From Streptomyces sp. NBC_01351 (GTDB taxonomy: Bacteria > Actinomycetota > Actinomycetes > Streptomycetales > Streptomycetaceae), in the NCBI RefSeq assembly GCF_036237315.1, contig NZ_CP108356.1:2170001-2234000 (forward strand): a stretch of 64,000 bases of DNA, given 5' to 3'. The number at the start of each line of letters is the position of its first letter. The first letter of the stretch is position 1. Of this stretch, positions 14,335 through 47,345 are shown in pieces. The notes under the pieces were generated by a model, which worked only from the letters and a program-made list of their open reading frames with translations, did not search any database and was not told the DNA's origin. Position numbers and translations under genes: made by a program.

Positions 14335-15024
14335 TCACGGTCCGGGCGGCGCGAGCTCCCGGGCGGGCGTGCGCCAGGCGAACCAAGAGGGGAACGCGGC
14401 AACGAGCTCGGGGTCGCCGTCGATCCGAACGCGCCCGGACCGGCGCGCGGCCTCCAGCGTGGCGGTGCCCGCCACCATCCGGTGCAGCTCCGCCAGATCG
14501 GCGCTCACCCATACGCCGACCTCGTACCCGGGGTGTACGCGGCAGGCACTCACATCGCCCCCGGGCGCCAGCACGAGCCACACGTGTTCGTCCGGCACCC
14601 CTTCCAGTCGCAGCGCGAACTCCACGACCACCCGCGCCCGGGGCAGCGCCTCGGCACGCACGAACTGCCGCAGCCGCCACAACACCCAGCCTCCGTCGAG
14701 CTGTTCGCGCATGGGGTCACCGAAGGACCAGCGGCGCGCCCAGTCGCCGAGCTGCCAGACCAGCGGTTCGAGTGCGGCGCCCGCGGGCGTCAGCCGGTAC
14801 GCGGGGCGGCCGTCGGCGTCCAGGGCGCGCAGGACCAGCCCGTGGGCGCGCATCCGGCGCAGGCGCGCCGACAGCAGGCTGCGGCTGATGCCGGGCAGCC
14901 CGCGGTGGATGTCGTTGAACCGCTCGGAGCCCAGGAGCAGCTCACGCAGGACGAGCAGGGTCCACCGGTCTCCGACCGCTTCGACCCCCGCCGTGACCGG
15001 GCAGTACTCGATCCCCCGCCGCAT
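14335..15024 (-). CDS. HxlR-family transcriptional regulator
   Basis: 229 aa. An N-terminal HxlR winged helix (EYCPVTAGVEAVGDRWTLLV, then RFNDIHRGLPGISRSLLSAR) carries a C-terminal extension of about 120 aa, probably ligand-binding and SCP2-like. The Cys near the N-terminus is the usual redox-reactive Cys of the family. It is divergent from a methyltransferase gene. The 80-bp gap contains two ACCGGT boxes and a perfect inverted repeat, so it probably controls that gene and itself. Confidence 0.85.
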   Translation of the reverse strand: MRRGIEYCPVTAGVEAVGDRWTLLVLRELLLGSERFNDIHRGLPGISRSLLSARLRRMRAHGLVLRALDADGRPAYRLTPAGAALEPLVWQLGDWARRWSFGDPMREQLDGGWVLWRLRQFVRAEALPRARVVVEFALRLEGVPDEHVWLVLAPGGDVSACRVHPGYEVGVWVSADLAELHRMVAGTATLEAARRSGRVRIDGDPELVAAFPSWFAWRTPARELAPPGP

Positions 15025-15079
15025 GGCCCGCCCCCTCGCGTCCCCCACTGACCGGTCCACTTCTTGTACCGGTGCCCGC

Positions 15080-15104
15080 GGACCGAGCATAGGAGGCTCG
15101 GTCC
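15080..15104. promoter_or_regulatory. Inverted repeat enclosing the methyltransferase ribosome site
   Basis: GGACCGAGC-ATAGGAG-GCTCGGTCC: perfect 9-bp arms around a 7-nt loop that contains the AGGAG Shine-Dalgarno core, ending one base before the GTG start. It could be an operator for the divergent HxlR protein, or an RNA hairpin that presents or masks the ribosome site. Two ACCGGT boxes lie just upstream (15051-15056 and 15068-15073). Confidence 0.55.
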
Positions 15105-15971
15105 GTGAACACTCCGCCAGCCGCCTCCGGCTCCGCCCCCACGTCCACGTCCACCTCCACCTCCACCTCCACCTGGGCCGCGGGCGACTACCCCGCGATG
15201 GCCCGCCGGCTCGTCCCGGCCTCGGCGCGGGCCGTCCTGGCCGCCGCGCCCGGCCCCGGCACGACTGTGCTCGACGTCGGCTGCGGCACCGGCAACGCCG
15301 CCCTCGCGGCCGCCCTGACCGGCGCGACGGTCACGGCCGCCGACCCGACGCCGCGGCTCCTCGCGATCGCCGCACGTCGGGCGCGCTCCGCGGACCTCCC
15401 GATCGCCTTCCAGGACGCCGACACCGACCACCTCACGGGCACGTACGACCGCGTCCTGACCGTGTTCGGAGCCATGTACGCCCCCGACGCGACCCGGGCC
15501 GCCGCCGCCCTCACCCGCTGCTGCGCCCCGGGCGGGCAGATCGTGACGGCCGCCTGGACACCGGACGGGTTCATGGCCGCCGCCAATCGCGTCATGGGCG
15601 CGTACCTCCCGCCCCCGCCCGCCGGCGCGCGACCGCCTACGCGCTGGGGGGACGAAGCGTTCCTGCGCGGCCTGTTCCCGGGCCACGAGGTCGCCGTGAC
15701 CACGGAGCACGTCCGCTTCGCCTTCGGGTCACCGCTCGCGGCGGCCGAGTTCTGGGTCCGCACGGCAGGACACCTCCAGGCGGAGCGCGACCGGCTCCGC
15801 GCCGCCGGCGCGTGGCAGGCGCTCCACCACGATCTCGCGGCACTGTTCGCCGAGTGGAACCGGGACGCGGGGGCCGGGGAGGACTCGGGCGTGCACGTCG
15901 ATTCGGCCTACCTGCTGGGTGTGATCCGCCCGGCCCCGGGCACCGCCCGCGCGCTGTGGTCGGGTGTCTGA
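15105..15971 (+). CDS. Class I SAM-dependent methyltransferase
   Basis: 288 aa. Motif I is VLDVGCGTGNAALAAAL (about 61-77), acidic motif II is TVTAADPTPRLL, and a GGQIVTAAWTPDGF post-motif follows, as in UbiE/Methyltransf_11 proteins. The N-terminus has a Ser-Thr run from codon-level repeats. GTG start with AGGAGG enclosed in a perfect hairpin. Divergent from the HxlR gene, convergent with the PTP-like gene. Substrate unknown. Confidence 0.82.
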   Translation: MNTPPAASGSAPTSTSTSTSTSTWAAGDYPAMARRLVPASARAVLAAAPGPGTTVLDVGCGTGNAALAAALTGATVTAADPTPRLLAIAARRARSADLPIAFQDADTDHLTGTYDRVLTVFGAMYAPDATRAAAALTRCCAPGGQIVTAAWTPDGFMAAANRVMGAYLPPPPAGARPPTRWGDEAFLRGLFPGHEVAVTTEHVRFAFGSPLAAAEFWVRTAGHLQAERDRLRAAGAWQALHHDLAALFAEWNRDAGAGEDSGVHVDSAYLLGVIRPAPGTARALWSGV

Positions 15972-15991: not shown

Positions 15992-16450
15992 CTAGGACTG
16001 CCCTGAGCCCGAGCCTTCGGCAGCGTAGACCTGACGGATGAAGCGCCGTTGCCACCGCATTTCGACCGCACGGGAGTGGTAGTTCCGCCTCACCCACTTC
16101 ACCGCCTCCTTGGGATCCATGCCCTCGAAGACGCACATCACGGAGAGCCCCGTACCGGTCCGGCCGACGCCTCCCCCGCAGCAGACCTCGACGCGTTCAT
16201 CTGCGGCACGGTCGTAGGCGATGCGGAGTTTGCGCATCGCGTCCATGGGGTCGGCGGGAAGCCAGAAGTCCCGCCAGGGAACCCACAGGGACTCCCACGG
16301 CGGCTTGGGCGGTTCGTGGTCCGTCAAGTGCACCGCGAAGGTAGGGGTCTGCCCCTCTGGCAGGTCGTATCTGAGCCCGCGTCCGCGAATCGTCCGCCCC
16401 GACGGGAGCGTAACCACCTTGGGGGTATCGGTGTTCCACAGTTCGGTCAT
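15992..16450 (-). CDS. Protein-tyrosine-phosphatase-like protein
   Basis: 152 aa. The P-loop VCCGGGVGRTGT fits the Cys-x5-Arg catalytic signature of tyrosine/dual-specificity phosphatases, with Cys in place of the usual preceding His. An upstream ADPMDAMRKLRIAYDRAADE helix and a downstream KEAVKWVRRNYH segment follow the family. Last gene of the leftward terpenoid-type operon; its ATG overlaps the flippase stop (ATGA). It may act on a phosphorylated intermediate instead of protein (inference). Confidence 0.75.
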   Translation of the reverse strand: MTELWNTDTPKVVTLPSGRTIRGRGLRYDLPEGQTPTFAVHLTDHEPPKPPWESLWVPWRDFWLPADPMDAMRKLRIAYDRAADERVEVCCGGGVGRTGTGLSVMCVFEGMDPKEAVKWVRRNYHSRAVEMRWQRRFIRQVYAAEGSGSGQS

Positions 16451-17415
16451 GACGAATCCCGTTTCGATCGGTTGCGTAAGAGCGAGTTGTCGGCCATTGC
16501 AATCATCCCCAGCGGGATCTGGGGAAGCACTTGTTGAGCATGGAGAACCAGTGCGAACGCCAGACCTTCAGCCTGCCCGAGGGCGCCCACTGTCGCGCCC
16601 AGCACGGCCGCCTCGAAGGTCCCCAGCTGGCCCGGCAGGGTCGGCAGAACGTTGGACACCTCGATCGACAGCAGTACGAGCACCAGGACGGCCACCGACA
16701 GCCGTAGGTCCAGCGCCTTCGCGATGACCACCGCGGCCAGGAGATCCAGTGCTCGGGCGACGACCGCGGCCACCCCCACCTCCGCGAAGACGCGCGGGCG
16801 GCGGACCGGCCCGAGTGCTGTGCGCGCGTCGAACACGATGGTGCGCAGCCGGCCCTCCCGGGCGGGGGCGGACGGAGTGCGCACGACCCTCACGATCAGT
16901 ACGAACGCTACCAACAGCACGGCCAGGTACACCCAGGCGACGGCCGACGCCCAGCCCGGCACGTTGCTCCCCGGCCACCATATGAACACCAGAAAGGGCA
17001 CGAGGCCCAGGCTGGAGAAGAACTTGCGGACCACCATGAGCGCGACGGTCACCGTCCGGGCCACACCCTCGCGCAGGAGATAGCCGATCCGGACGAACTC
17101 GCCCACGCCCTCCGGGCTGACGGCCGCCGCGGCCTGGACGGCGAACTCGATCCGCACCAGGAGGGAGAACCGGATCCTGGACTCGGTGAACAGCGCGTTC
17201 CAGCCGACGGCCCGGGACACCTGCGAGGCGACATTGGCCAGGACGGCCACGGCCAGCCAGCGCCAGTCGGCGGCCTCCAGTGCCGCCCACAGATGCCCCG
17301 GGTCCATGCCCCAAAGGGTGACCACGAGGCTGACGCCCACCGCCGCGAACAACAGTGTCCGGATCACCCGGTCGCGCGTGCTGTGATCCTTCGGCGGGGA
17401 CTCGGTCGGGGTCAC
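16447..17415 (-). CDS. LPG-synthase TM / flippase-like membrane protein
   Basis: 322-aa inner-membrane protein with about 8 hydrophobic helices, of the UPF0104/AglD-like (lysylphosphatidylglycerol synthase TM region) family. Family-like blocks are NVASQVSRAVGWNALF, SPEGVGEFVRIGYLL and NVLPTLPGQLGTFEAAVLG. It lacks the cytosolic aminoacyl transferase of true MprF. GTG start overlaps the upstream gene's stop (GTGA) and its own stop overlaps the PTP-like start, so it is coupled on both sides. Export or flipping of a lipid-like product is an inference from the operon. Confidence 0.8.
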   Translation of the reverse strand: MTPTESPPKDHSTRDRVIRTLLFAAVGVSLVVTLWGMDPGHLWAALEAADWRWLAVAVLANVASQVSRAVGWNALFTESRIRFSLLVRIEFAVQAAAAVSPEGVGEFVRIGYLLREGVARTVTVALMVVRKFFSSLGLVPFLVFIWWPGSNVPGWASAVAWVYLAVLLVAFVLIVRVVRTPSAPAREGRLRTIVFDARTALGPVRRPRVFAEVGVAAVVARALDLLAAVVIAKALDLRLSVAVLVLVLLSIEVSNVLPTLPGQLGTFEAAVLGATVGALGQAEGLAFALVLHAQQVLPQIPLGMIAMADNSLLRNRSKRDSS

Positions 17416-19787
17416 GGCTCGCTCCGCACCCGCACGGTGCCTCCATCACCGTCCACGGTCAGCACGTCCCCGGTCGCGATCCGCGACGTCGCCGTCCGCA
17501 CACCCATCACCGCCGGGATGCCGTACTCGCGCGCCACCACCGAGCCGTGGGACAACGCGCCCCCGACGTCGGCCACCACCGCGCCGGCCCGGGCCAGCAG
17601 GGGCGCCCACGCCGGCGTCACCTGGCGTACGACGAGCACTTCGCCCCTCTCCAGCGCGTCCGCGTCCGCGAACTCGTGGATCACCCGGGCCCGGCCCGTG
17701 TAGCACCCCGGGCTCACCGGGGATCCGCTCAGCCCGTCGCCCTTGCTCTCCCCCCGCTCGGTCCCGAACAGCGCCAAGGAGGTGATGTCGGACCCGAAGA
17801 GCGTGATCCGCGCGTCGGCGGGGACCACATCGGGCGGATTGAGCCGCCGCTGCCACTGGCGCCGCAGTCGGCGCTCACGCACCAGGCCGCGCCACCGCGC
17901 GTCGTCCGCGTCGGCGTTCACCCAGCCCCTCAGCTCCTCCCCGGTCAGGTAGAACACGTCGTCGGCCACGTCGAGCAGGTCGGCGAGGACGAGCCGGCGG
18001 CCGAGTTCGAGATATCCGGCCCGCATGAACGGCCAGCCGAGCGTGAAGTAGTGCAGGGCCTCGTCCCGTACTCCGCTCCAGTGGTGCGCCCACTGGTGGA
18101 CCTCGCGCCGCAGTCGGCCGGCCGGACCGCGTCCGAGCCGGCGTACGGGGGCGCCGCCAGGGGCCGCTGCCGGCGCCAGGCCACTCGGTTCGCCTCCGTC
18201 GCGGCGGCCGGCGATCACCGAGCGGAGCATCGAAGGATCGTCGATCGCGGTGGGTTCGGCCGGGTCGAGGCTGTACACCAGGTGGCCGAAGCGTCGCAGG
18301 TACTCCCGCAGCAGTTCTTCCTCGTCTTCCGGGGTGGCCGCCGCGACCCGGTCCAGGGCACGGTCGGCCTGGTGGGCGAGCCGATCGTCGCCCACGAGCA
18401 GGGATCCGGCCGTGAGCCCGGCGGTGCGCCGACCGCCGCGCGCCAAGACCAGCCCCAGCAGCCACTCGCTGGTGTTCCAGTGCCAGGCGAGCCCTCCGAT
18501 CACCGCCCAGTACCGGGCGCTCAGGTCCTCGACGGCCCGGATCCGTCGCAGCACTTCGGCCGACGTCAGGTCCTCGAGAGGTGCGTTCCGTGCGCGCTCC
18601 AGGCCTTCCTGGAGGGCGGGCAGCACCTCGTGCCGCCAGCGCCGCTCCACCGGTGAGAGGTGGAAGGCCAGCCAGCGCGCGATGAGTCGCAGGGTCCGCA
18701 ACGGATGCTGGGAGAGGGGGAAGTCGAAGCGCAGATAGGCGAACCCGTTCACCGTTCCGTGCATCGGCTCCGGGATCAGCGGACTGCGCGCGCGCAGTTT
18801 GCGCGGACCACCCCAGTTGGTCGCCCACCGGTCGATGAGCGACGGGAACAGCGTGGTGGCGAAGAGCGGGGAGAGCGGATCGGACAGCCACGAGTCGCAG
18901 ATGCTCATCCGGGCCCATCGCGCCCCGGGGACCTCGCTCGCCCAGTCGCCGAACTGCGTCGGCGGCGGGACGGCGGCGGTGATCGGGCGAGCCTGCAACA
19001 GGTGCAGTCCGGTGTCGTCCAGCGCCCATTCGATGTCCTGCGGTCCACCCAGCGCCCGCTCCACCGCCAGCGCCGTGCGCACCAGAGAGCGAAGAGGGCC
19101 CTCGCCCTCGGCCGTCTCGCCCATCCGTTCTCCGAACGCGGTGCTGAACACGGGCGTGTGAGGCTCCTTCCGGGAGTACACCGCCCGGTTCGGCTCCGCC
19201 GTCCCGTCCACGAGCTGCGTGCCGAGCCCCTCGACCGCCTCGACGAGAACCAGCTGGTCGTCGTCCGCGACGGGGGCCTCCGCGGTGAACACCACCCCGG
19301 CCCATTCGGGCACCACCATCGCCTGGACCACGACGGCCATCGCCGGGGCCTCCTCGGCGAGGCCGATCCGGCCCCGGTAGACGCCGGCGGCGGCGGAGTG
19401 CCGGGACCGCTGGCAGCGGGCGACGGCGGCCAGCAGCTCGTCGAAGGTGCGGACGCCGAGCACGCTTTCGTACTGGCCGGCGGCACTGCTTTCCGCACCG
19501 TCCTCGTTGGTGGCCGACGAACGCACGGCGACGCCGTGCGGGGCGGGCAGGGCCTCCCAGCACTCCCGCACCTGATCAAGGACGTCGTCACGCAGCCCCG
19601 ATCCGCCGGTGCGCCCCCCGTCTCCCTCCAGACCCGCCACGGTGGTGAAGACATCCACCGGGAGACAGAACCCGGGGGGTACGGGAAATCCCGCCGCCAT
19701 CAACCGGCCCAGCCCCTTGGCCTTGCCCCCGACCCGTCCGACGGGCAGGTCCGCGGCCTCGGTCAGGCTCACGACGCCCTCAGCCAT
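17412..19787 (-). CDS. Rifampin-phosphotransferase-like / PEP-synthase-like protein
   Basis: 791 aa. The N-terminal ATP-grasp (PPDK_N) domain is about 1-325 (VGGKAKGLGRLMAAGFPVPP, then VRSSATNEDGAESSAAGQYE). A large central domain follows, about 330-690. The C-terminal swivelling His domain reads GGALSHGSVVAREYGIPAVM with catalytic His about 747. There is no PEP/pyruvate TIM barrel, and the SHGS context matches rifampin phosphotransferase (Rph) more than PpsA. It should therefore transfer the beta-phosphate of ATP to a hydroxyl of some compound, leaving AMP and Pi. The operon suggests a terpenoid acceptor or self-protection (inference). Confidence 0.82.
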   Translation of the reverse strand: MAEGVVSLTEAADLPVGRVGGKAKGLGRLMAAGFPVPPGFCLPVDVFTTVAGLEGDGGRTGGSGLRDDVLDQVRECWEALPAPHGVAVRSSATNEDGAESSAAGQYESVLGVRTFDELLAAVARCQRSRHSAAAGVYRGRIGLAEEAPAMAVVVQAMVVPEWAGVVFTAEAPVADDDQLVLVEAVEGLGTQLVDGTAEPNRAVYSRKEPHTPVFSTAFGERMGETAEGEGPLRSLVRTALAVERALGGPQDIEWALDDTGLHLLQARPITAAVPPPTQFGDWASEVPGARWARMSICDSWLSDPLSPLFATTLFPSLIDRWATNWGGPRKLRARSPLIPEPMHGTVNGFAYLRFDFPLSQHPLRTLRLIARWLAFHLSPVERRWRHEVLPALQEGLERARNAPLEDLTSAEVLRRIRAVEDLSARYWAVIGGLAWHWNTSEWLLGLVLARGGRRTAGLTAGSLLVGDDRLAHQADRALDRVAAATPEDEEELLREYLRRFGHLVYSLDPAEPTAIDDPSMLRSVIAGRRDGGEPSGLAPAAAPGGAPVRRLGRGPAGRLRREVHQWAHHWSGVRDEALHYFTLGWPFMRAGYLELGRRLVLADLLDVADDVFYLTGEELRGWVNADADDARWRGLVRERRLRRQWQRRLNPPDVVPADARITLFGSDITSLALFGTERGESKGDGLSGSPVSPGCYTGRARVIHEFADADALERGEVLVVRQVTPAWAPLLARAGAVVADVGGALSHGSVVAREYGIPAVMGVRTATSRIATGDVLTVDGDGGTVRVRSEP

Positions 19788-20835
19788 GCTCTGCCACCTC
19801 CACCCACTGCTGATAGAAACGTCGGAATCGCCGCACGGCGTCGTCGCCGGGCACGTAGATGCCGTGCCGGTCCCCCGGCAGCATCGTGTCGAAGACCGGG
19901 AGGTCCTGGCGGGCGGCCACCTGCACCTCCGCACGGTGCACGAGTGCGCGCAACCACCCCAGGGCACCCGCCCCGTCGGGGTCGACGGAGGCATTGATGT
20001 GCTGGATGCTGTGGTGCTCTCCGATCGGGGTGACGGCCAGGACCATTCGGTACAGGCGCCGGCCGTCCGCGTAGTACTCGATCTCCTGGCAGCTCGCCCA
20101 GCCGCGCATCCGCAGGGTGAACTCGCGCGCGTTGAGCCCGAACGCGTTCGACACGGTGCCCAACGCGCCCCGGTACGCGGGCCAGGTGAGGGTCGCGTCG
20201 CAGCGCTCCGCCGGTTTGTCGTCCGGCGCCTTGTCGCCGGTCTCCTCCTCCTCGCGGGCGTCCGAGAAGGCGATCCGGGCCTCCCCGGTCACCGTCAGCC
20301 CGTGCAAGGCCACCAAATGGTCCGGATCGTAGGTGTTTTCCAGGATTCGCCTGGTGGTGGCCCGGGTCGGGTCGGCCAGCCGGAAGCTCCGGACGCCGGG
20401 AATCTGCCGCGCTTCGAGGTCCGGCAGGTCCGGAGGCTCGTAGCGGGGCGTCCCGCTGCCGTACCACGCCCACACATAGCCCGAGCATTCGCGGGTGGGC
20501 AGCGCGGTGACGGCGGCCCGCGCCGGCGGGCGTCGCCCCGGCACGAAGACACACGCCCCGGACTCGTCGAACCGCCAGCGGTGGAAGGGGCATTCGAGCG
20601 TGCCTTCGACCACCTTGCCGCCGTGCAGGGCTGCCCCCGCGTGCGGGCAGATCGCGCTCTGCACATGGGCCCGGCCGTCGTCGCCGCGCCAACCCACGTA
20701 GGAATCGCCGAACAGCGTGATCCGGCGGGGCCGACGCCGCAGATCCGCGGAGGGCAGCGCGACGTACCAGCCCGAGGCGAGGTTCGTGACGGGCCGTGGC
20801 GACGCGGCCATCCGCTCCGACGTCTTGCGCCTCAT
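19780..20835 (-). CDS. Rieske non-haem iron oxygenase 1
   Basis: 351 aa. The N-terminal Rieske [2Fe-2S] domain has CPH (C63, H65) and CPFH (C82, H85). The C-terminal catalytic domain has ENTYDPDHLVALHG with the mononuclear-iron His pair about 173 and 178. This is the KshA/VanA-like oxygenase layout and needs a separate reductase, none of which is encoded nearby. Its stop overlaps the start of the phosphotransferase-like gene by 8 nt. One of three related genes in a row, likely hydroxylating or desaturating the cluster product. Confidence 0.88.
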   Translation of the reverse strand: MRRKTSERMAASPRPVTNLASGWYVALPSADLRRRPRRITLFGDSYVGWRGDDGRAHVQSAICPHAGAALHGGKVVEGTLECPFHRWRFDESGACVFVPGRRPPARAAVTALPTRECSGYVWAWYGSGTPRYEPPDLPDLEARQIPGVRSFRLADPTRATTRRILENTYDPDHLVALHGLTVTGEARIAFSDAREEEETGDKAPDDKPAERCDATLTWPAYRGALGTVSNAFGLNAREFTLRMRGWASCQEIEYYADGRRLYRMVLAVTPIGEHHSIQHINASVDPDGAGALGWLRALVHRAEVQVAARQDLPVFDTMLPGDRHGIYVPGDDAVRRFRRFYQQWVEVAEHG

Positions 20836-20890
20836 CCCGTCCCCTTCCGAACAATCCGCCGTCGTATCCGCGCCGCCTTGGACCGGCCTC

Positions 20891-21892
20891 TCACTTGTCC
20901 CCCCGCCCCGTCCAACGGCGATGGAACTGACGGAACCTCAGTACGCCCTCGTCGTCAGCGGTGTTGATCGAACCGTCGGTTTCCTCGGCGTCCCGGTAGA
21001 TGCGCAAGTCCGCCCGGGTCCCCCACCAGTGCTGGAGCCGGTAGCCCCAGAAGACCGGGAAAGAACCGAGCAGACCGTCGGCCCGCGGCACGACGGTCCA
21101 GCCATGCATCGTGGTCCGCCCCTGCGCCACCGGCGTCACGGCGAGCAGCTCGTGCGCCACCGGGCGGTCGTTCAGCTCGAACGTCAGCACCTGGTACGAA
21201 GGCGTCGAGCGCAGGTGCAGACAGAGCCGTCCAAGACCGCCCGGCCGCCGGTCCAGCGGAGGCGGCAAGGTGATCGCGTCCGTGGTGATGCGCGCCGCGA
21301 TCGTGTGCCGGTCCCCTTCTGCGTCCCAGGTGAGCCGGAGGTCGTCGGAGATCCCGTGGATCACCGGGAAGTGGGGTACGTCGAATCCGTTCTCCAGCAC
21401 CCGGCGTGCCGGTGCGGGGGTGTCGAAGGAGAACCGGTAGCGCCGGTGGGCCGGTGCCTGCCGGTCCAGGTGGGGGAAGTCCGGCGGCGGATACTCGGGG
21501 ACCTCCGATCCCACCCAGGTCCAGACATAGCCGAACCCTTCCCAGGAGGGGTGTACCCGGGCCGAGGCGTCGCGCGGCACCCGCCGGGTGGCGGGGGCGG
21601 CCACACAGGTCCCCTCGCCGTCGAACCGCCAGTGGTGGAACGTGCACCGCAGCTCCCCGCCCACCACCTTCCCGAGCTCCAGGGCGGCTCCCTGATGGGG
21701 GCAGAAGCGGTCCATCACGACTGCCGCGCCGTCTCCCGCACGCCAGAGCACCACCTCTCGCCCGGCCACCACGGCGGCCAGGGGCCTTCGCCCCACGCCG
21801 GTGGAACGCCCGGCCACGTACCAACCACGCGCCAGATCGCGCGGCGGTTCGAGATCCCGGGGCGGCCGTCCCCGTACCGGCGCGAGGCTCAT
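20891..21892 (-). CDS. Rieske non-haem iron oxygenase 2
   Basis: 333 aa. Rieske ligands lie in CPHQGAA (C64, H66) and CTFHHWRFDG (C83, H86). The catalytic iron site is in LENGFDVPHFPVIHG (H174, H179). ATG chosen because it overlaps the previous gene's stop (ATGA). It is closer in sequence to oxygenase 3 in the Rieske domain than to oxygenase 1. Fifty-five nt separate it from oxygenase 1, the one visible gap in the coupled run. Confidence 0.88.
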   Translation of the reverse strand: MSLAPVRGRPPRDLEPPRDLARGWYVAGRSTGVGRRPLAAVVAGREVVLWRAGDGAAVVMDRFCPHQGAALELGKVVGGELRCTFHHWRFDGEGTCVAAPATRRVPRDASARVHPSWEGFGYVWTWVGSEVPEYPPPDFPHLDRQAPAHRRYRFSFDTPAPARRVLENGFDVPHFPVIHGISDDLRLTWDAEGDRHTIAARITTDAITLPPPLDRRPGGLGRLCLHLRSTPSYQVLTFELNDRPVAHELLAVTPVAQGRTTMHGWTVVPRADGLLGSFPVFWGYRLQHWWGTRADLRIYRDAEETDGSINTADDEGVLRFRQFHRRWTGRGDK

Positions 21893-22998
21893 CGGCCGAC
21901 CTTTCCGTCGTCCGCGGCGCGGTCGACCCATGACTGGTAGTAGCGGCGGAACCGGAGCAGCCCGTTGTCGTAGCGCACGTAGACCGTGGGCTGGGCGTTG
22001 CGGGTCGAGTCGTAGACGGGTACGTCCTGGAAGGTCCCCGCGCGGTTCTGGACCCAGAACAGGACGTAGTTGAAGAGGGTGCGGTGCCAGCGTCCGGTGC
22101 GGCGCACCCCGGCCCAGCCGACCTGCCGGGTAGCCCGGTCCCCCTCGGGGACGATGCCCATGATCACTTTGTAGACCTCGGTGCCGTCGACGTACGCCGT
22201 GAAGCGCTGGCCGCCCGGCCATCCGTCGACCAGCAGTTGCATGTGGCGACCCATCGCGAAGGTGGAGACGACACCGGTGATCCAGCCCAGGGGTGAGCGG
22301 CGCAGCGGCGGCCGCCATGGCCGGCCGGAGAACCACACGCCGAACCAGGCGTCGTCCCGTGTCAGCGGCGGACCGTTGTCCGCCGCCTCGGACTGTTCGG
22401 CCAGCACGCGGAACTCCACCTTGTCCAGGGCCAGTCCGTGCAGAGCGCTGAAGTGCTGGTGGTCGACCGCGTTCTCCAGTAGTTGACGGATCGTTCCGGT
22501 GGTCGCGTCGTCATAGGAGAAGCCGAGGTAGCGACGGGGCCTGTCGGTCAGCGCCGGGAACTCCGGCAGCTCGAAAAGGGGTTCGGTGGTGCCGTACCAG
22601 ACCCAGACGAACCCGTACGCCTCGCGGGTGGGATAGGACCGGGTCCGGGCCGTCGTCGGGATGCGCGAGAGGCCGGGGATCGAGGAGCAGACCCCGTTGC
22701 CGTCGAACCGCCAGTGGTGGAAGGGGCAGCGCAGTTCGCCGTTGACGACGTCCCCGAGGCCCAGGTTGGCGCCCTGGTGCGGGCAGTGCGCGGACACGCA
22801 CCGCACCACCCCCTTCCGGTCGCGCCACAGCACGACCTCGCGCCCGAACAACCGCATCCGGTGCGGCCCCTTGCCCAGTCGGGAACTCTTGATCGCGGCA
22901 TACCAGGAGGCGGCGATGTTCGCTCCGGCGGGATTCGGCGGGGCGGCCGAGGCGGGGACGGTCCGAAGCTCTTCCTGGGAGCCGTCTGCGCCGATCAC
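21889..22998 (-). CDS. Rieske non-haem iron oxygenase 3
   Basis: 369 aa. Rieske ligands lie in CPHQGANLG (C72, H74) and CPFHHWRFDG (C91, H94). The catalytic iron site is in LLENAVDHQHFSALHG (H182, H187). The GTG start overlaps the stop of the prenyl synthase gene (GTGA), so prenyl synthesis and first oxidation are coupled at translation. The N-terminus (about 1-30) is a Pro/Ala-rich extension absent from the other two. Confidence 0.88.
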   Translation of the reverse strand: MIGADGSQEELRTVPASAAPPNPAGANIAASWYAAIKSSRLGKGPHRMRLFGREVVLWRDRKGVVRCVSAHCPHQGANLGLGDVVNGELRCPFHHWRFDGNGVCSSIPGLSRIPTTARTRSYPTREAYGFVWVWYGTTEPLFELPEFPALTDRPRRYLGFSYDDATTGTIRQLLENAVDHQHFSALHGLALDKVEFRVLAEQSEAADNGPPLTRDDAWFGVWFSGRPWRPPLRRSPLGWITGVVSTFAMGRHMQLLVDGWPGGQRFTAYVDGTEVYKVIMGIVPEGDRATRQVGWAGVRRTGRWHRTLFNYVLFWVQNRAGTFQDVPVYDSTRNAQPTVYVRYDNGLLRFRRYYQSWVDRAADDGKVGR

Positions 22999-23912
22999 GC
23001 CGCCGCCCGGCCGCGGACCACCTCGGCGGCCCAGCGGAGCATGGACGCTCGCTCGCCGAACCCGTCGAGCTCCGCCACCGCCCCCGTGATCAGTCCGCGC
23101 ACCCGCTCACGTGCCTCCTCCACCCCCACCAACCGGGGATACGTCCACTTGCCGGCGGCCCGGTCCTGGCCGACTTCCTTGCCGAATTCCTCAAAACTCG
23201 ACGTCTCGTCGAGAATGTCGTCGACGATTTGATACGCGAGCCCGAGATTCCGCGCATACGTGGCGAGGCGAGTGATGTCGTCCTGCGACGCCCCTCCCAG
23301 AATCGCCCCGGTGACCACGGACGCCTCGATGAGCGCACCGGTCTTCTTGATGTGCATCTCCTCCACGGTCAACGGGTCGACATCGTCGCGTCCCTGGGAG
23401 TAGAGGTCGAGCGCCTGGCCGCCGGACAGGCCGGACGGGCCCACCACCTCGATGAGTTTGGCCATGACGCCCAGCAGTCTCTCCGGCTGCAGCGAGTCGG
23501 AGTTCTGGAGTATGAACTCCAGCGCATAGGCGAGCAGCGCGTCACCCGCCAGCAGCGCCATACCCTCACCGAACACCCGGTGGTTGGAAGGGCTGCCGCG
23601 GCGGAAATCGTCGTCGTCCATGGCCGGCAGGTCGTCATGGATGAGCGAAGCCGTGTGCAGCATTTCCAGGCCACAGGCGGTGGGAAGTGCGATGGATACG
23701 TCGGTGTCGAATATCCCGTAGGCCAACAGGCACAGCGTCGGCCGGATGCGCTTCCCATCGGCCAGCAGCGAATAGGCCATGGCCTCGCGCAGTCGAGGCG
23801 GTTCCACCGAGTCGACGGAGGAGCGCAGCATCTCATTGACCTGGCGGCGGAATTCCTCCATAGGAACCGGAAGGCCTGTTTCCACTTGGGTGTTGTCAAT
23901 CGCGAAGGACAC
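22995..23912 (-). CDS. Polyprenyl (GGPP-type) diphosphate synthase
   Basis: 305 aa, trans-isoprenyl diphosphate synthase (IspA/CrtE group). First Asp-rich motif HDDLPAMDDDDFRRG (D93, D94, D99) and second DDILDE (from D231). The residue five before the first Asp is Ala, where farnesyl synthases of this type have an aromatic residue, so C20 or longer is likely. The GTG start is preferred over ATG 23930 because GGGGAG lies about 10 nt upstream of it and nothing lies before the ATG. It heads the coupled run of Rieske and phosphotransferase genes. Confidence 0.88.
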   Translation of the reverse strand: MSFAIDNTQVETGLPVPMEEFRRQVNEMLRSSVDSVEPPRLREAMAYSLLADGKRIRPTLCLLAYGIFDTDVSIALPTACGLEMLHTASLIHDDLPAMDDDDFRRGSPSNHRVFGEGMALLAGDALLAYALEFILQNSDSLQPERLLGVMAKLIEVVGPSGLSGGQALDLYSQGRDDVDPLTVEEMHIKKTGALIEASVVTGAILGGASQDDITRLATYARNLGLAYQIVDDILDETSSFEEFGKEVGQDRAAGKWTYPRLVGVEEARERVRGLITGAVAELDGFGERASMLRWAAEVVRGRAAA

Positions 23913-24124
23913 GAAGCTCACTCTCCCCATGGATGCACCGAACGGGCCATCGCACGAAGGGGCGGTGGCCATGATGCAGATTCACAGCGATGGAATAGAG
24001 GCTGACGGCGGATTCCGGCGTCGATCGCACCAATCCGGCCTGCGGATGTGCTGCGTTCGACCCTCCGGGACCCTTCGTGCAGAGATGACGACGGATGGAT
24101 CGCAGTGCGACGGCCGGCGTCTGC

Positions 24125-25153
24125 TCAGATCGCCAGTACCCGCGCTTCCGCGCCTGCCGTCGCCTTCGACAGGGGACTGGCGGCAACGCTCATGCGCTTC
24201 AACCAGCGGTCCGTACCGTCGAACCGCGGCTCGAAGGCCCGACGCCCGTGCACGGCACGGTAGTTGTCCACGATCAGCACGTCCCCCTCGCCGACCACCA
24301 CGTCGCGCTGGGCACGGGTGAGCTCGTCGACGATCGCGGCCAGCGCCTCGGTGGCCTCACCGTCGCCGGCCAGTGCGGTCGTATAAGGGGCGTCGATCCG
24401 CAGGCTGGGAGCCTCGGGGTCGCCGAAGAGGAGCGCGACCGGCTCCGGGTTCTCGTACATCTCGTGCGCACGCCGGAGCATCTCGCTGTCGGGTGCGTAC
24501 CTGGCCAGTTGACGCAGGTGCTCCAGGTCGGGCCGGATCAGAAAGCGCCGCTCGCGGAGCACGGAGCGGTGGCCCTCGGCCAGCCGCACGTCGTTGACCG
24601 TGCCGATCGTGGTCGGCACCCGGTCGGGGTTCCTGATGCCGAGGAGCGCCAGGTAGCGGCATCTGTCCTGGTGAAAGCCGTCCTCGGTGTGCCATTCCAG
24701 GGCGACCGAGCCATGGCCGCTCTGTTCCTCGCGGTCGCTCTCGACCGGGAGGAGGTTCTGGACCATCCGGCCCCGCTGGATGGTCGGCCACGCGAAAACG
24801 CCACCCAGGCTGGAGGCCAGCAGGGCCAGCTGCGCCTCCTCCAGCTCCTGGCGGCCGTCATCGAGGGCTTCCTGCCAGGAGAGCGGAGTGGGCCCGCACC
24901 GGCCGGGGTCGACGCGCACGCCTGAAACGCGCAGCGCACACAGTGAGGGTGAGTCCTTGAATTCGTTCAGTACCGAGCGGATCGACACCGGTATTCGATG
25001 AACGTACTCTTCCAGGCCTTCATAGAATAAGGACTTCGCGGGAGAGCCCTGCGCGGTCAGCGCAGCCTGGGCTGCCGCGCACAGGCCATCGGCCTCTTCA
25101 GCCGACAGGGAGTGCTCTAAAACCGATGGAGAGCGCCCCGAAAAGACATCCAT
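24125..25153 (-). CDS. Fe(II)/2-oxoglutarate oxygenase, AsnO/VioC-like
   Basis: 342 aa, clavaminate synthase-like family. Iron ligands read as EWHTED (H155, E157; the HxE form used by AsnO and VioC instead of HxD) and distal H302 in NYRAVHGRR, with a nearby Arg for 2-oxoglutarate. Characterised relatives hydroxylate free Asn or Arg at C-beta, which is odd beside terpene genes. Two in-frame TTA codons (L12 and L42) imply bldA dependence. It ends 213 nt before the prenyl synthase start and may share or precede that operon's promoter. Confidence 0.82.
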   Translation of the reverse strand: MDVFSGRSPSVLEHSLSAEEADGLCAAAQAALTAQGSPAKSLFYEGLEEYVHRIPVSIRSVLNEFKDSPSLCALRVSGVRVDPGRCGPTPLSWQEALDDGRQELEEAQLALLASSLGGVFAWPTIQRGRMVQNLLPVESDREEQSGHGSVALEWHTEDGFHQDRCRYLALLGIRNPDRVPTTIGTVNDVRLAEGHRSVLRERRFLIRPDLEHLRQLARYAPDSEMLRRAHEMYENPEPVALLFGDPEAPSLRIDAPYTTALAGDGEATEALAAIVDELTRAQRDVVVGEGDVLIVDNYRAVHGRRAFEPRFDGTDRWLKRMSVAASPLSKATAGAEARVLAI

Positions 25154-25276
25154 TCCGATTCCCCCGAATTGGTTGGAAGTGACCGCACCACGAAGAGCAA
25201 CACAGGCGGCGTTCTTGGCGAATCAAGTGAAGCCTGCGCATCAGGCCTTGCGAGTAAGCCTGGACGGTGCGGATCA

Positions 25277-25298
25277 TGATGGTACACCATGTCCATCA
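25277..25298. promoter_or_regulatory. Inverted repeat in the divergent control region of the terpenoid cluster
   Basis: TGATGG (25277-25282) and CCATCA (25293-25298) flank an inner ATGGT-AC-ACCAT repeat. They lie in the 251-bp AT-richer gap (25154-25404) between the Fe/2OG oxygenase gene and the membrane-cyclase fusion gene. Any cluster regulator would act here; none is encoded in the cluster. No confident -10/-35 pair is seen. Confidence 0.35.
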
Positions 25299-25404
25299 CC
25301 CGCTCAGGTAAACTTTGCCTCAACTACGCATGCAGGTACGTGAGTTGGGTGTCCACGGATTGGACTGGCTGTGCGGGACTCGGCTCTGGGAGGCTGGATT
25401 GAGC

Positions 25405-26940
25405 ATGATGCGAAACCTGAGGCTGGCGGCGTCTCGGCGCGCCAAGCACTTACTGGCTTCGGCCGTTACCCAAGTGGCGCCACCGATTCGACGCGGCATC
25501 GAGACCACCATCAGCGAGGGCATGCACGCCACGGTCCTCGGCGCGTCGCTGAAGCAGCAACTTCGCGCTGCACCAGTTCGGTTGACAGCCCGATACCTTA
25601 CCTTCGCGGTCAAGCGCGCACGTCTCGCCGCACTGGCTCCAGAACCAGTCGGAGGCAACCTTTCCGGATATCTGGCAGGGGTTCGGGACGCGGGCATCGA
25701 AAAGGTCCTGACCCGGCTTTGCGCCCGCATCCCCGACGGCGCACGCGCCCGGCAGGACGTCACGGAACTCGCCGAAGTGGAATTCGCGGTTCGCCAGGGC
25801 ACGGCGAAGCCGGAACAACTCCGGCGGCTCCTGGAGTTGGCTCCGAGTGAACTGCGCATCGTCCGAGACCTCGGCCGGCCGTGGGACCGCGAGGGCGACG
25901 AGGAACTCCGCGAGACGCTGCGCCCCGCCGAGACCCTGGCCTACGTCGCCTGGGACCTGAAGCAGTACGCCTGCACCACCGGCCCGATCAAACGCACCAA
26001 CATCTACGCCGCCTTCGTCGACACCTACGGCGACGCCGCCACGGAGCGAATACGGGAGGAAATCTCCCATTTCGAAGCGCTCTTCGAGAAGGGGCTGCGA
26101 TCGGTCGGCGCGGAGCACCAGGAACAGCTCGAACGGGCGTTCTTGCTCCACTGCGCCCCGCTCCGGGACGACTTCCCGGACCCGGCCGCCGACCGGCACG
26201 AAGAGAAGAACGCGGCCGAAGGGGTGTCGAGTGCCGTCGTCCTGTTCGGCATGCTGTGCGCCCTCGGATGGCTGGTGGCCTACGTGGCGATCGTCTACCG
26301 GGGCTTCGCCGATCAGACGTACGGCGTGCCACTCGCCGCCTTCTTCGCCAATCTCACCTGGGAGTTCGCCTACGGCTTCCTCCTGGACCCGCTCGGCGAC
26401 TACTTCCACACCGCGAGCATCGCCGGCTTCCTGGTCGACGTGGTGATCGCCTGGCAGGTGTGGAAGTACGGCGCGGCGCAGTTCCCGGACAGCGCGCTCG
26501 GCCGCTACTTCCGGCCCGTCTTCGGACTGTGCGTGGCCGCCGCCCTGTCGGTCAACTACCACGCGTTCATCGACCTGGCAGATCCCGATGGGGAGTACAC
26601 GGGATTCGGCATCAACCTGATGATGTCCATCCTGTACCTCAAGATGCTGGAGGACCGCGGCTCCCCTGCGGGCCAGTCGATGTACATCGCCATCGGCAAA
26701 TGGCTGGGCACGCTGTGCGCCTGGATCGCCACGGCCCTCACCGTCACCACCTCACCGCAACGGACCTGGCCCACGAGCTGGTCCGAGTTCACGCGGAAGT
26801 CGCTGGGCCACCGTTCGTATCCGCTGACCCCGCTGATCAACGTCATGTACGGGTGGACGTTCCTGCTGGACGTCGCCTACTGCGTCCTGCTCCACCGCTC
26901 CATAAAGGCCGCCGGCATGTCGCCTTGGCGCCGGCTCTGA
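25405..26940 (+). CDS. Fusion: YtpB-like domain + Pyr4/PaxB-type membrane terpene cyclase
   Basis: 511 aa. Residues about 1-280 form a soluble all-helical domain homologous to the protein at 27718-28638 (shared TNIYAAFVDTYGDAATERIR block). Its acidic motif is degenerate (WDLKQYACTTG). Residues about 300-511 have about 6-7 TM helices and match fungal Pyr4/PaxB integral-membrane terpene cyclases: FFANLTWEFAYGF with the presumed catalytic Glu (E320), and WTFLLDVAYCVLL with the second acid (D489). These enzymes protonate an epoxide or alkene to fold polyprenes into rings. TTA codon at L16. ATG 25405 chosen after GGGAGG; TTG 25399 is also possible. Confidence 0.78.
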   Translation: MMRNLRLAASRRAKHLLASAVTQVAPPIRRGIETTISEGMHATVLGASLKQQLRAAPVRLTARYLTFAVKRARLAALAPEPVGGNLSGYLAGVRDAGIEKVLTRLCARIPDGARARQDVTELAEVEFAVRQGTAKPEQLRRLLELAPSELRIVRDLGRPWDREGDEELRETLRPAETLAYVAWDLKQYACTTGPIKRTNIYAAFVDTYGDAATERIREEISHFEALFEKGLRSVGAEHQEQLERAFLLHCAPLRDDFPDPAADRHEEKNAAEGVSSAVVLFGMLCALGWLVAYVAIVYRGFADQTYGVPLAAFFANLTWEFAYGFLLDPLGDYFHTASIAGFLVDVVIAWQVWKYGAAQFPDSALGRYFRPVFGLCVAAALSVNYHAFIDLADPDGEYTGFGINLMMSILYLKMLEDRGSPAGQSMYIAIGKWLGTLCAWIATALTVTTSPQRTWPTSWSEFTRKSLGHRSYPLTPLINVMYGWTFLLDVAYCVLLHRSIKAAGMSPWRRL

Positions 26941-27011
26941 GCACCTCCGCTCCGCACCTCCGCTCCGCAACGGCGCTGCCGTCCGTGCCGGGACGGCAGA
27001 AGGGAATGGTC

Positions 27012-27062
27012 ATGAACACGCTCCGCCGACAGTTCACCGGTCCCGTCGAGCCCACGTCGTGA
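27012..27062 (+). CDS. 16-aa leader peptide coupled to PAP2 gene
   Basis: MNTLRRQFTGPVEPTS, with AGAAGGGAA upstream, ends in TGA that overlaps the GTG start of the PAP2 gene (GTGA). The PAP2 gene has no good ribosome site of its own, so this short frame may serve for translational coupling. It is too short for further support. Confidence 0.4.
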   Translation: MNTLRRQFTGPVEPTS

Positions 27063-27721
27063 CCGGCGCCGCAGCCGGGACCGCCCCCCGACACCTCCTC
27101 GGATCGGCAGTCGCGGCGACGGCGCTCGTCACCCTGACCGCGCTGGTGGCGTCCGGGAGCAACGCCGTCAGCGCGTTCGACGCCGAGGCCCGTGCACTGG
27201 CCGACCGCGCTTTCGGGGCATCGGGCGGCTCCTGGCTCGGCGCCGGCGGACCGGCGGACATGGTGGGCTCGGCCCTGGTGTGGGCGGGCCTGCTCACGAT
27301 CCTCGGCGTACTGCTGCGCCGCCGCCGGCCGGGCGCCGCACTGTGGGTGCTCGGTGGCCTGAGCGTGCAGTTCGCGGTGGAGACGGCGCTCGAAGTGCTG
27401 GTGGGACGGCCGATGCCGCTGCCGGCCGACGGCACTGCCCCCGACCCCGGGTACAGCTTCCCGTCCGGGCACACGGCCTCCGCGACGCTCATCGTGTTGG
27501 CGCTGCTGGTCGTGCTGCGTACCGGCACACCCGTGTGGTGGCTGTGCCTGGGCCTGGGTCCGGTCCTCGTGGCGGCTGTCGCCGTCTCCCGCGTGCTGGC
27601 AGACGCCCACCACGCCGCCGACGTCGCGGGCGGCGTCCTGCTCGGGCTCGCGGTCGGCTTCGCGGTCGCCTGGCGTGTGGACACCCGCACCCCGGACACC
27701 TCCGGAAAGGAAACACGATGA
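27059..27721 (+). CDS. PAP2-family membrane phosphatase
   Basis: 220-aa inner-membrane protein with 5-6 TM helices. PAP2 motifs: GRP, PSGHT (SFPSGHTAS), and SRVLADAHHAADV (SRx5Hx3D). The lysine that normally opens motif 1 is not evident (TALEVLVGRP). The family dephosphorylates lipid or prenyl diphosphates, so here it could cleave prenyl-PP or a phosphorylated terpenoid. Its stop overlaps the next gene's start (ATGA). Confidence 0.85.
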   Translation: MTGAAAGTAPRHLLGSAVAATALVTLTALVASGSNAVSAFDAEARALADRAFGASGGSWLGAGGPADMVGSALVWAGLLTILGVLLRRRRPGAALWVLGGLSVQFAVETALEVLVGRPMPLPADGTAPDPGYSFPSGHTASATLIVLALLVVLRTGTPVWWLCLGLGPVLVAAVAVSRVLADAHHAADVAGGVLLGLAVGFAVAWRVDTRTPDTSGKETR

Positions 27722-28638
27722 ACAGCTTGGCCCGTCTGGCGTCGACCCCTCTGGGGAAGGCGATGGGCATCACGCGGGACTACGTGTCGCACATGTACTA
27801 CATCGTGGACGAAGTGCCGCGCAGGCAGCGCTTACGCCTGACGCCCGTGCTGCTCGGCGTCGAGTACCTGGTCTACCGTGTCGATTCCCTGGCCGAACGC
27901 AACACGGCGGTGGACCTCGACGCCGAGCGCAACAGCGACTACGAGGCGTTCCACACGTACAAGAAGGCTTTCGAGAAGGTGCTGCGGTCCCTGGGCGCAT
28001 GGAACGAGGAGGTGGCCTTCCTGGTCGACGAGGCGGAGCGGTTCATCCGCCTGGAGAACGCCACGACGTCGCGCGGCTCCGTCACCCGTCAGGACGCTCT
28101 CGCCCTGGTCGAACTGAGACCCACCGACGTGCGTCTGCTGCGTGCCATGACCTTCGCCCTTCGCGGACGGTCGATGGGCCCCGCGGCCCGGGACCTGCTC
28201 TGGCCGGTGGAAGTGCTCGCGGACATCGCGAACGACCTCGGGCACTACGAACAGGATGTCGCCTCGGGGACCTTGAACGTCTACGCCTGCTTCGTGGAGC
28301 TCTTCGGCGACGCGGCCGCCGCAGAGTTGCGACGCGAGGTGGACCGGTACGAGTCGATGTTCCTGGATCGCCTCTCCGCGCTGCCACCCGAGCGGCGCGC
28401 ACGGGTCGCGGAGGTCTGCCGACGCCGCTACGCGGCGGCCGTGCGGCCGTACCCCCGGGCGATCACCACGCCCCCGGACCCCGCGCCCCCTTCACTGCCC
28501 GCCGGCACGAGCCTGCGCAAGAAGGTGGCCATCGGCGCGGCCCTGGCCGTCGGCATCCTCGGCGCAGCGGCGTACGGGCGTGGCCGGCGGCCGCTCTTGA
28601 TCACGGCTGCCCGCCGCCTGCCTCGGCCATCTGCCTAA
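27718..28638 (+). CDS. YtpB (DUF2600)-like putative terpene synthase
   Basis: 306 aa, helical, with one C-terminal hydrophobic helix (about 265-290). RVDSLAERNTAVDLD (D56 onward) lines up with the DYLDNLCDRS-type motif of the YtpB/tetraprenyl-curcumene synthase family. YEQDVASGTLNVY (E178, D180, N187) lines up with that family's second motif (QEED-x3-GDLNF), and the spacing fits. This alignment is from memory and needs an HMM search. It is homologous to the N-terminal domain of the fusion gene upstream but keeps the acids lost there. TTA codon at L39. ATG with GGAAAGGAAA; coupled to PAP2. Confidence 0.6.
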   Translation: MNSLARLASTPLGKAMGITRDYVSHMYYIVDEVPRRQRLRLTPVLLGVEYLVYRVDSLAERNTAVDLDAERNSDYEAFHTYKKAFEKVLRSLGAWNEEVAFLVDEAERFIRLENATTSRGSVTRQDALALVELRPTDVRLLRAMTFALRGRSMGPAARDLLWPVEVLADIANDLGHYEQDVASGTLNVYACFVELFGDAAAAELRREVDRYESMFLDRLSALPPERRARVAEVCRRRYAAAVRPYPRAITTPPDPAPPSLPAGTSLRKKVAIGAALAVGILGAAAYGRGRRPLLITAARRLPRPSA

Positions 28639-46372: not shown

Positions 46373-47173
46373 TCAGAGGCTGACACCGTGCGAGCGCAGG
46401 TACGCGACCGGGTCGATGTCCGAGCCGTAGTCGGCACCGGTGCGGGCCTCGAAGTGCAGGTGCGGGCCGCTGGAGTTGCCGGTAGAGCCCGACAGGCCGA
46501 TCTGCTGGCCCGGGGTGACCTGCTGGCCGACGGAGACGCTCAGCGAGGTCATGTGCCCGTACTGGGTGTACGTACCGTCGTTGTGCTTGATGACGACGTT
46601 GTTGCCGTAGGCGCCGCCCCAACCGGCCTCCACGACGGTACCGAGGCCCACCGCGCGGACCGAGGTGCCGGAGGCGGCGCGGAAGTCGATGCCGGTGTGG
46701 CTGCCGGAGGACCACATGCCGCCGCCCGCGTGGTACTGCGTGCTGATCCCGCCGGGTACCGGGGCGACGAAGGTGTTGAGGCGCTTGCGCTCCTCCTCGC
46801 GGGCCGCACGCTCGGCGGCCTCGCGCTCGGCCTTCGCCTTGGCCTCGGCGAGGCGCTTGGCCTCGGCGGCCCGCTGCTTGGCTTCGGCCTCGGCCTGCGC
46901 CTTGGCGGCGGCCTGCTCGGCGGCGCGCTGCTGGGACTCTGCCTGGTCGGCGATGTCGCCCGGGAGGTCCTCGGCAACGACGACGGCGCCCAGCGCGTTG
47001 TCCTGCGAGTGGTTGTTGTTGCCGTTGTCGGCGGCGAAGGCCGGGGCGGCGAGGGAGCCGACGACACCAGTGGTGGCGAGGGCGGCTATGCCGGCGTAAC
47101 CGGCGGTCTTGCGGCTCAGACGGCTGGAACCACGGTGCTTACCGGAGCCGGTGGGACGACTGCCAAACGCCAT
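46373..47173 (-). CDS. Secreted M23 (LytM) endopeptidase
   Basis: 266 aa cell-wall hydrolase. Signal region about 1-48 (basic start, hydrophobic core, AAPAFA-AD cut site), an Ala/Glu/Lys/Arg coiled coil (about 75-132), and an M23 domain about 135-262 with zinc ligands H159 and D163 (SHTGIDF) and GPHLHFEA. Expected to cut peptidoglycan cross-links during growth or spore germination. The long leader carries a c-di-AMP riboswitch, so its output should fall when c-di-AMP is high. Confidence 0.92.
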   Translation of the reverse strand: MAFGSRPTGSGKHRGSSRLSRKTAGYAGIAALATTGVVGSLAAPAFAADNGNNNHSQDNALGAVVVAEDLPGDIADQAESQQRAAEQAAAKAQAEAEAKQRAAEAKRLAEAKAKAEREAAERAAREEERKRLNTFVAPVPGGISTQYHAGGGMWSSGSHTGIDFRAASGTSVRAVGLGTVVEAGWGGAYGNNVVIKHNDGTYTQYGHMTSLSVSVGQQVTPGQQIGLSGSTGNSSGPHLHFEARTGADYGSDIDPVAYLRSHGVSL

Positions 47174-47190
47174 GAAGGGGCTGATCCTTT

Positions 47191-47345
47191 CCTTCCTTCT
47201 CGCCTACCGGGTTAGCTGACGGGTTCGGAGCAGGAAGGTCTCCTACGGGCCTCCTCTTGCGAGGCGGTCCGATTCACCCCAGGGACTGATGTGGGTCCCC
47301 GGCTCCCCAGGCTCGCGCCTGACGGGGACTCGGCGATCGCTGCCC
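47191..47345 (-). promoter_or_regulatory. ydaO-type c-di-AMP riboswitch
   Basis: Read on the minus strand the leader contains the conserved ydaO blocks in order: GCCGAGTCCCCGTCAGGCG, GGGGAGCCGGGGACCCA, GGGGTGAATCGG, and CCGAACCCGTCAGCTAACCC then GTAGGCGAGAAGGA. These are the hallmark segments of actinobacterial c-di-AMP riboswitches that control cell-wall hydrolases. It ends about 20 nt before the start codon of the M23 gene. Confidence 0.88.

Follow-up and report, generated by a model that had tools for sequence, protein, structure and literature searches.

The locus at 15992-28638 of the window (the whole stretch of 64,000 nucleotides that was analysed, from Streptomyces sp. NBC_01351) is very probably a gromomycin cluster, comprising gro3 to groH without groI, and its predicted product is a gromomycin C-type tetracyclic triterpene capped by a guanidine. 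The gromomycin cluster was published in March 2025 with gene deletions and heterologous expression (PMC12105684) and again in 2026 (PMC13010261). Ten of the eleven gromomycin genes named in the accessible text of these two papers are present here in matching order; only the P450 gene groI is missing. The GroH protein of the window shares 86% identity with P0038, its counterpart in the original producer, Streptomyces sp. Je 1-332. The sequence-only reading had taken the locus for an undescribed cluster whose gene set matched nothing known, which is wrong, as the set is that of the gromomycin cluster; its description of a cluster for an oxygenated polycyclic terpenoid was correct. It had the terpenoid product class right and missed the guanidine, to which both the membership of GroE in the arginine/enduracididine hydroxylase family and arginine labelling point; according to PMC12105684, labelling shows that the gromomycin guanidine derives from arginine. 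With this identification the case for a new type of cluster falls away, and the strain joins the predicted producers of an antibiotic class described in 2025. What remains of interest is that groE occurs here in the absence of groI, and how GroF arose.

By the ORF calls the locus holds eleven intact, open genes in two divergent groups. The minus strand carries a gro3-like gene for a protein-tyrosine-phosphatase-like protein (15992-16450; 152 aa; Pfam PTP-SAK and Y_phosphatase; motif CCGGGVGRT), a gro4-like gene for an LPG-synthase-TM (flippase-like) membrane protein (16447-17415; 322 aa; Pfam LPG_synthase_TM) and a gene for an Rph/RedH/PEP-synthase-like enzyme (17412-19787; 791 aa; Pfam PPDK_N and PEP-utilizers; motif GGALSH). 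Three Rieske oxygenase genes follow at the groA position (19780-20835; 351 aa; Pfam Rieske and VanA_C; CPH...CPFH and DPDHLVALH), the groB position (20891-21892; 333 aa; corrected start; Rieske motifs, and Pfam Rieske on a longer ORF) and the groC position (21889-22998; 369 aa; Pfam Rieske and motifs); assignment of the individual genes to groA, groB or groC rests on position. The group ends with a groD-like polyprenyl diphosphate synthase gene (22995-23972; 325 aa; Pfam polyprenyl_synt; DDLPAMD and DDILD) and a groE-like gene for an Fe(II)/2OG oxygenase of VioC/MppO/GntD type (24125-25153; 342 aa; Pfam TauD; matching PDB 6daw; WHTEDGF, AVHGRRAF and DRWLKR). The plus strand carries a groF-like cyclase gene (25405-26940; 511 aa), a groG-like PAP2 phosphatase gene (27059-27721; 220 aa; Pfam PAP2; PSGH and RVLADAHHAAD) and a groH-like gene for a YtpB-like enzyme, the proposed guanidine prenyltransferase (27718-28638; 306 aa), placed by its identity to GroH of Je 1-332 and by its fold.

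With corrected starts, gro3/gro4, gro4/gro5, groB/groC, groC/groD and groG/groH overlap by 4 nt and gro5/groA by 8 nt; gaps of 55, 152 and 118 nt separate groA from groB, groD from groE and groF from groG. The catalytic motifs looked for were present in every protein checked, and the gene list and families given earlier for this region proved accurate, the genes being open and Pfam confirming the families of all but the YtpB-like protein. These families correspond to the published ones: PMC12105684 describes groA-C as Rieske genes, groD as a polyprenyl synthase, groF as a cyclase, groG as PAP2, groH as a proposed prenyltransferase and groI as a P450, with genes 3-5 in front, and PMC13010261 identifies the products of gro3 and gro4 as a protein-tyrosine phosphatase and an LPG-synthase-TM protein, respectively. 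As far as their text is accessible, both papers mine for gro clusters by groD, groF and groH lying near one another, as the three do here; the three Rieske genes also adjoin groD, and gro3 and gro4 sit at the border. The 12.6 kb region had no match in a plasmid collection.

When genome contigs were scanned with alignment A1 of GroF (the window plus 25 of the 33 proteins found as homologues, 26 rows in all), 35 loci were returned, 7 of them actinobacterial (L005-L011) and 28 from Paenibacillus/Bacillus. The actinobacterial loci belong to Streptomyces sp. JJ66, Streptomyces sp. BR123, S. termitum, S. pilosus, K. aureofaciens NRRL B-2183, Streptomyces sp. MH60 and A. xinjiangensis. All seven carry gro3, gro4, the Rph-like gene, groA-D, groF and groH, at 35-94% identity (gro3 at 80-89% in L005-L010 and 55% in L011), while groE and groG occur in six (L005-L010), no match to either being found in A. 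xinjiangensis (L011). Because the core set is shared by every actinobacterial locus that the groF scan returned, the neighbourhood is more than chance; the co-conservation in other genomes on which the sequence-only reading had staked its cluster is present. PMC12105684 and PMC13010261 count five of these as gro carriers (JJ66, S. termitum, S. pilosus, MH60 and A. xinjiangensis); the accessible text of these papers does not name the strain of the window, Streptomyces sp. BR123 or K. aureofaciens as such. A groF match at E 1e-60 occurs in 3 of 392 sampled genomes of the genus, the strain's own among them, and the GroH profile matches 3 of 394 genomes sampled class-wide, namely the strain's own, G490 (L040) and G729 (L041), the last with no other gro gene in the 20 kb around its GroH-like match.

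The Paenibacillus/Bacillus loci (L012-L039) were rejected as gro clusters: all 28 match the cyclase domain only, and none has another gro gene at E 1e-5. Neither the 12 ORFs to the left of gro3 nor the 5 to the right of groH, some of which are perhaps not real genes, have a match at E 1e-10 around the JJ66 and BR123 clusters, over a span of about 14-16 kb on the gro3 side and 8 kb on the other. As the flanking ORFs are not common to these strains, the shared unit runs from gro3 to groH. A methyltransferase gene on the plus strand (15105-15971), convergent with gro3, was considered as a cluster gene and rejected, having no match at E 1e-10 near the JJ66 or BR123 clusters. Just outside the cluster lies a gene for an HxlR-type regulator with a weak SCP2 sterol-transfer-like match (14335-15090, minus strand). 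Elsewhere in the window, a c-di-AMP riboswitch (47187-47345, minus strand; Rfam RF00379, 81.2 bits) lies just upstream of an M23-peptidase gene (46373-47173).

By the route that the papers propose, and which likely holds for the window strain too, GroD would make hexaprenyl diphosphate and GroH would attach the C30 chain to a guanidine derived from arginine; oxidation would fall to the three Rieske enzymes, the membrane cyclase GroF would form four carbocycles from the chain and the fifth ring would be closed by a guanidine nitrogen, with gro3 and gro4 supporting titre. A quite different route would have the Rph-like enzyme of an undescribed terpenoid cluster make a phosphorylated intermediate, PAP2 trim it and the flippase-like protein export the product. 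The enzyme families for such a route are present and the Rph-like gene is kept in all seven actinobacterial loci, but the same gene set has already been published with its product (PMC12105684, PMC13010261), and deletion of gene 5, taken from its place in the order to be the Rph-like gene, made no discernible difference (PMC12105684); we regard this route as extremely improbable. The Rph-like protein itself scores 248.3 against the NCBIfam Rph cut-off of 999 and also falls below that for RedH. In the accessible text neither the phosphorylated intermediate put forward earlier nor export by the LPG-type protein finds support: beside the result for gene 5, loss of gene 3 or gene 4 lowered titres, an effect read by the authors as regulatory (PMC12105684).

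Taking groI of S. termitum as reference (L007 13091-14290), copies 78-81% identical follow groH in L008-L010. No groI follows groH in the window, L005, L006 or L011, and the best match in the window is not below E 6.7. Among 20 matches to S. termitum GroI in the strain's own genome, the best full-length ones reach 41-42% identity and none exceeds 42%; the best P450s of G218 and G347, taken as the genomes of L005 and L006, reach 42-44%. A methyltransferase gene between groF and groG, found in L008-L010, is likewise absent from the window. Gromomycin C was the product when groI was deleted (PMC12105684), and expression of the A. xinjiangensis cluster, which lacks groI, yielded gromomycins C, I and J (PMC13010261). 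With neither groI nor a methyltransferase gene between groF and groG, the cluster is predicted to carry out no C-17 oxidation and no side-chain methylation. The product would be an unmethylated gromomycin C-type compound ([M+H]+ 480.39) and not the C-17-oxidised gromomycin A or B; GroE, which is kept in the window, may modify it further. A P450 encoded elsewhere might instead replace GroI in a gromomycin cluster, so that the C-17-oxidised A and B were made with GroE acting as published. The genome has 28 Pfam P450 matches, some of them pieces of one gene, and GroE is retained; yet no full-length P450 passes 42% identity to GroI, against 78-81% among the GroI copies themselves (L007 versus L008-L010), and we judge such a replacement unlikely. 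In PMC13010261 the JJ66 and Je 1-332 clusters are called almost identical, a wording with which the absence of groI after groH in JJ66 (L005 13275-21533) fits poorly.

The retention of groE without groI bears on the published role of GroE. PMC12105684 annotates groE as an enduracidin beta-hydroxylase, yet proposes it as a reductase. By sequence, GroE is a VioC/MppO-type Fe(II)/2OG oxygenase and not a reductase. Its best solved chain is PDB 6daw (E 1.4e-84), followed by CmnC and arginine beta-hydroxylases, and the HxD/E...H iron triad is present (WHTEDGF at 154, AVHGRRAF at 300) and aligned with 6daw. Within the best 29 of 420 homologues (P0076-P0104; 57% identity or more; one is the window's own fragment), 26 of 29 have WHTED and 28 of 29 have HGR. 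The NCBIfam scores, 308.4 against a cut-off of 345 for GntD and 250.1 against 418.6 for VioC, both lie below threshold and so do not settle the substrate.

One possible, if rather doubtful, reading is that GroE oxidises the guanidine end or arginine and is not a C-17 ketone reductase. The VioC/MppO-family sequence with its iron triad in place argues for it, and enzymes of this family would not be expected to reduce a ketone. In addition, groE persists in each of the three groI-less Streptomyces loci found, those of the window, L005 and L006; there, in the absence of GroI, the proposed ketone would not form. These three are, however, near relatives, and the absence of groI may be a single loss; the GroH tree, with 9 of its 14 inner branches open, is compatible with one. 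The genetics also weigh against an oxygenase role of this kind. The groE mutant accumulates gromomycin B with the cyclic guanidine intact, which fits a late step on the terpenoid and from which the authors infer a C-17 ketone reductase (PMC12105684, PMC13010261); clusters without groE still yield guanidine products (PMC13010261); and the groI mutant, which retains groE, gives gromomycin C (PMC12105684). In view of the second of these observations a role for GroE as the only supplier of free guanidine ranks low, and in view of the third so does direct hydroxylation of gromomycin C by GroE. A literature search combining arginine hydroxylase with guanidine, prenyltransferase and terpene cyclase found no paper. 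The natural gene set with groE and without groI makes the published role testable.

The earlier recognition of the 25405 gene as a membrane terpene cyclase fusion holds: the C-terminal half of GroF matches Pfam Pyr4-TMTC (82.3 bits, cut-off 27) and its N-terminal half is GroH-like. The motif DLADPD, named by the authors in GroF (PMC12105684), stands at residue 390. The N-terminal half is a second, decayed copy of GroH that has lost acidic residues invariant in GroH, whose invariant positions in alignment A2 include D56, E60, D169 and D173. GroH itself has no Pfam match (a longer ORF was scanned) and no NCBIfam match, and a search of its profile against the sequences of solved structures returned two chance-level matches only. 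In structure comparison, its predicted model matches class I terpene and prenyl synthases and, over the domain, would have the class I isoprenoid synthase fold. Beyond the published account, as far as its text is accessible, go the family placement of GroE and the recognition of the GroF N-terminal half as a GroH copy. We tentatively extend both, in a proposal we consider somewhat unlikely, to a groI-less subtype in which the GroE oxygenase would act on the guanidine end or arginine to give a gromomycin not yet isolated, and the GroH copy, catalytically dead, would serve as a docking or folding module for the membrane cyclase. The GroF proteins lend themselves to an evolutionary reading in three forms, the cyclase alone, fused to an intact GroH and fused to a decayed GroH. 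A further Pyr4-like cyclase domain, with 29% identity to GroF, is encoded in the strain's own genome (G000:C1:4899522-4900010; L042); of the gro genes tested against the 20 kb fetched there, the groF domain alone was matched.

Set against known clusters, the locus resembles that of Je 1-332 (gro3-groI) in gro3, gro4, the order of groA-groH and the DLADPD motif of GroF, and differs from it, on the accessible account, in lacking groI. JJ66 and BR123 have the eleven genes in equal order and likewise no groI; their flanking genes are other, and their groF is 88% identical to that of the window. The A. xinjiangensis locus shares gro3, gro4, the Rph-like gene, the three Rieske genes, groD, groF, groH and the absence of groI, and differs in that neither groE nor groG was found and its GroF, of 239 aa, comprises no more than the cyclase; this short protein suggests that the GroH-like half may be dispensable. 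Most of the GroE sequence can be aligned with MppO, CmnC, OrfP and VioC, sharing HxE...H and the DRWLK stretch, whereas its own group is set apart by [LV]R[ILV]D[AGP]PYT, present in all 29 of the best 29 of 420 homologues. The C-terminal half of GroF belongs to the same Pfam family as the Pyr4-like transmembrane terpene cyclases TylF, XiaH and fungal Pyr4, and GroF and TylF fall in one network cluster in the accessible part of PMC13307353; GroF differs from all three in its extra GroH-like N-terminal half.
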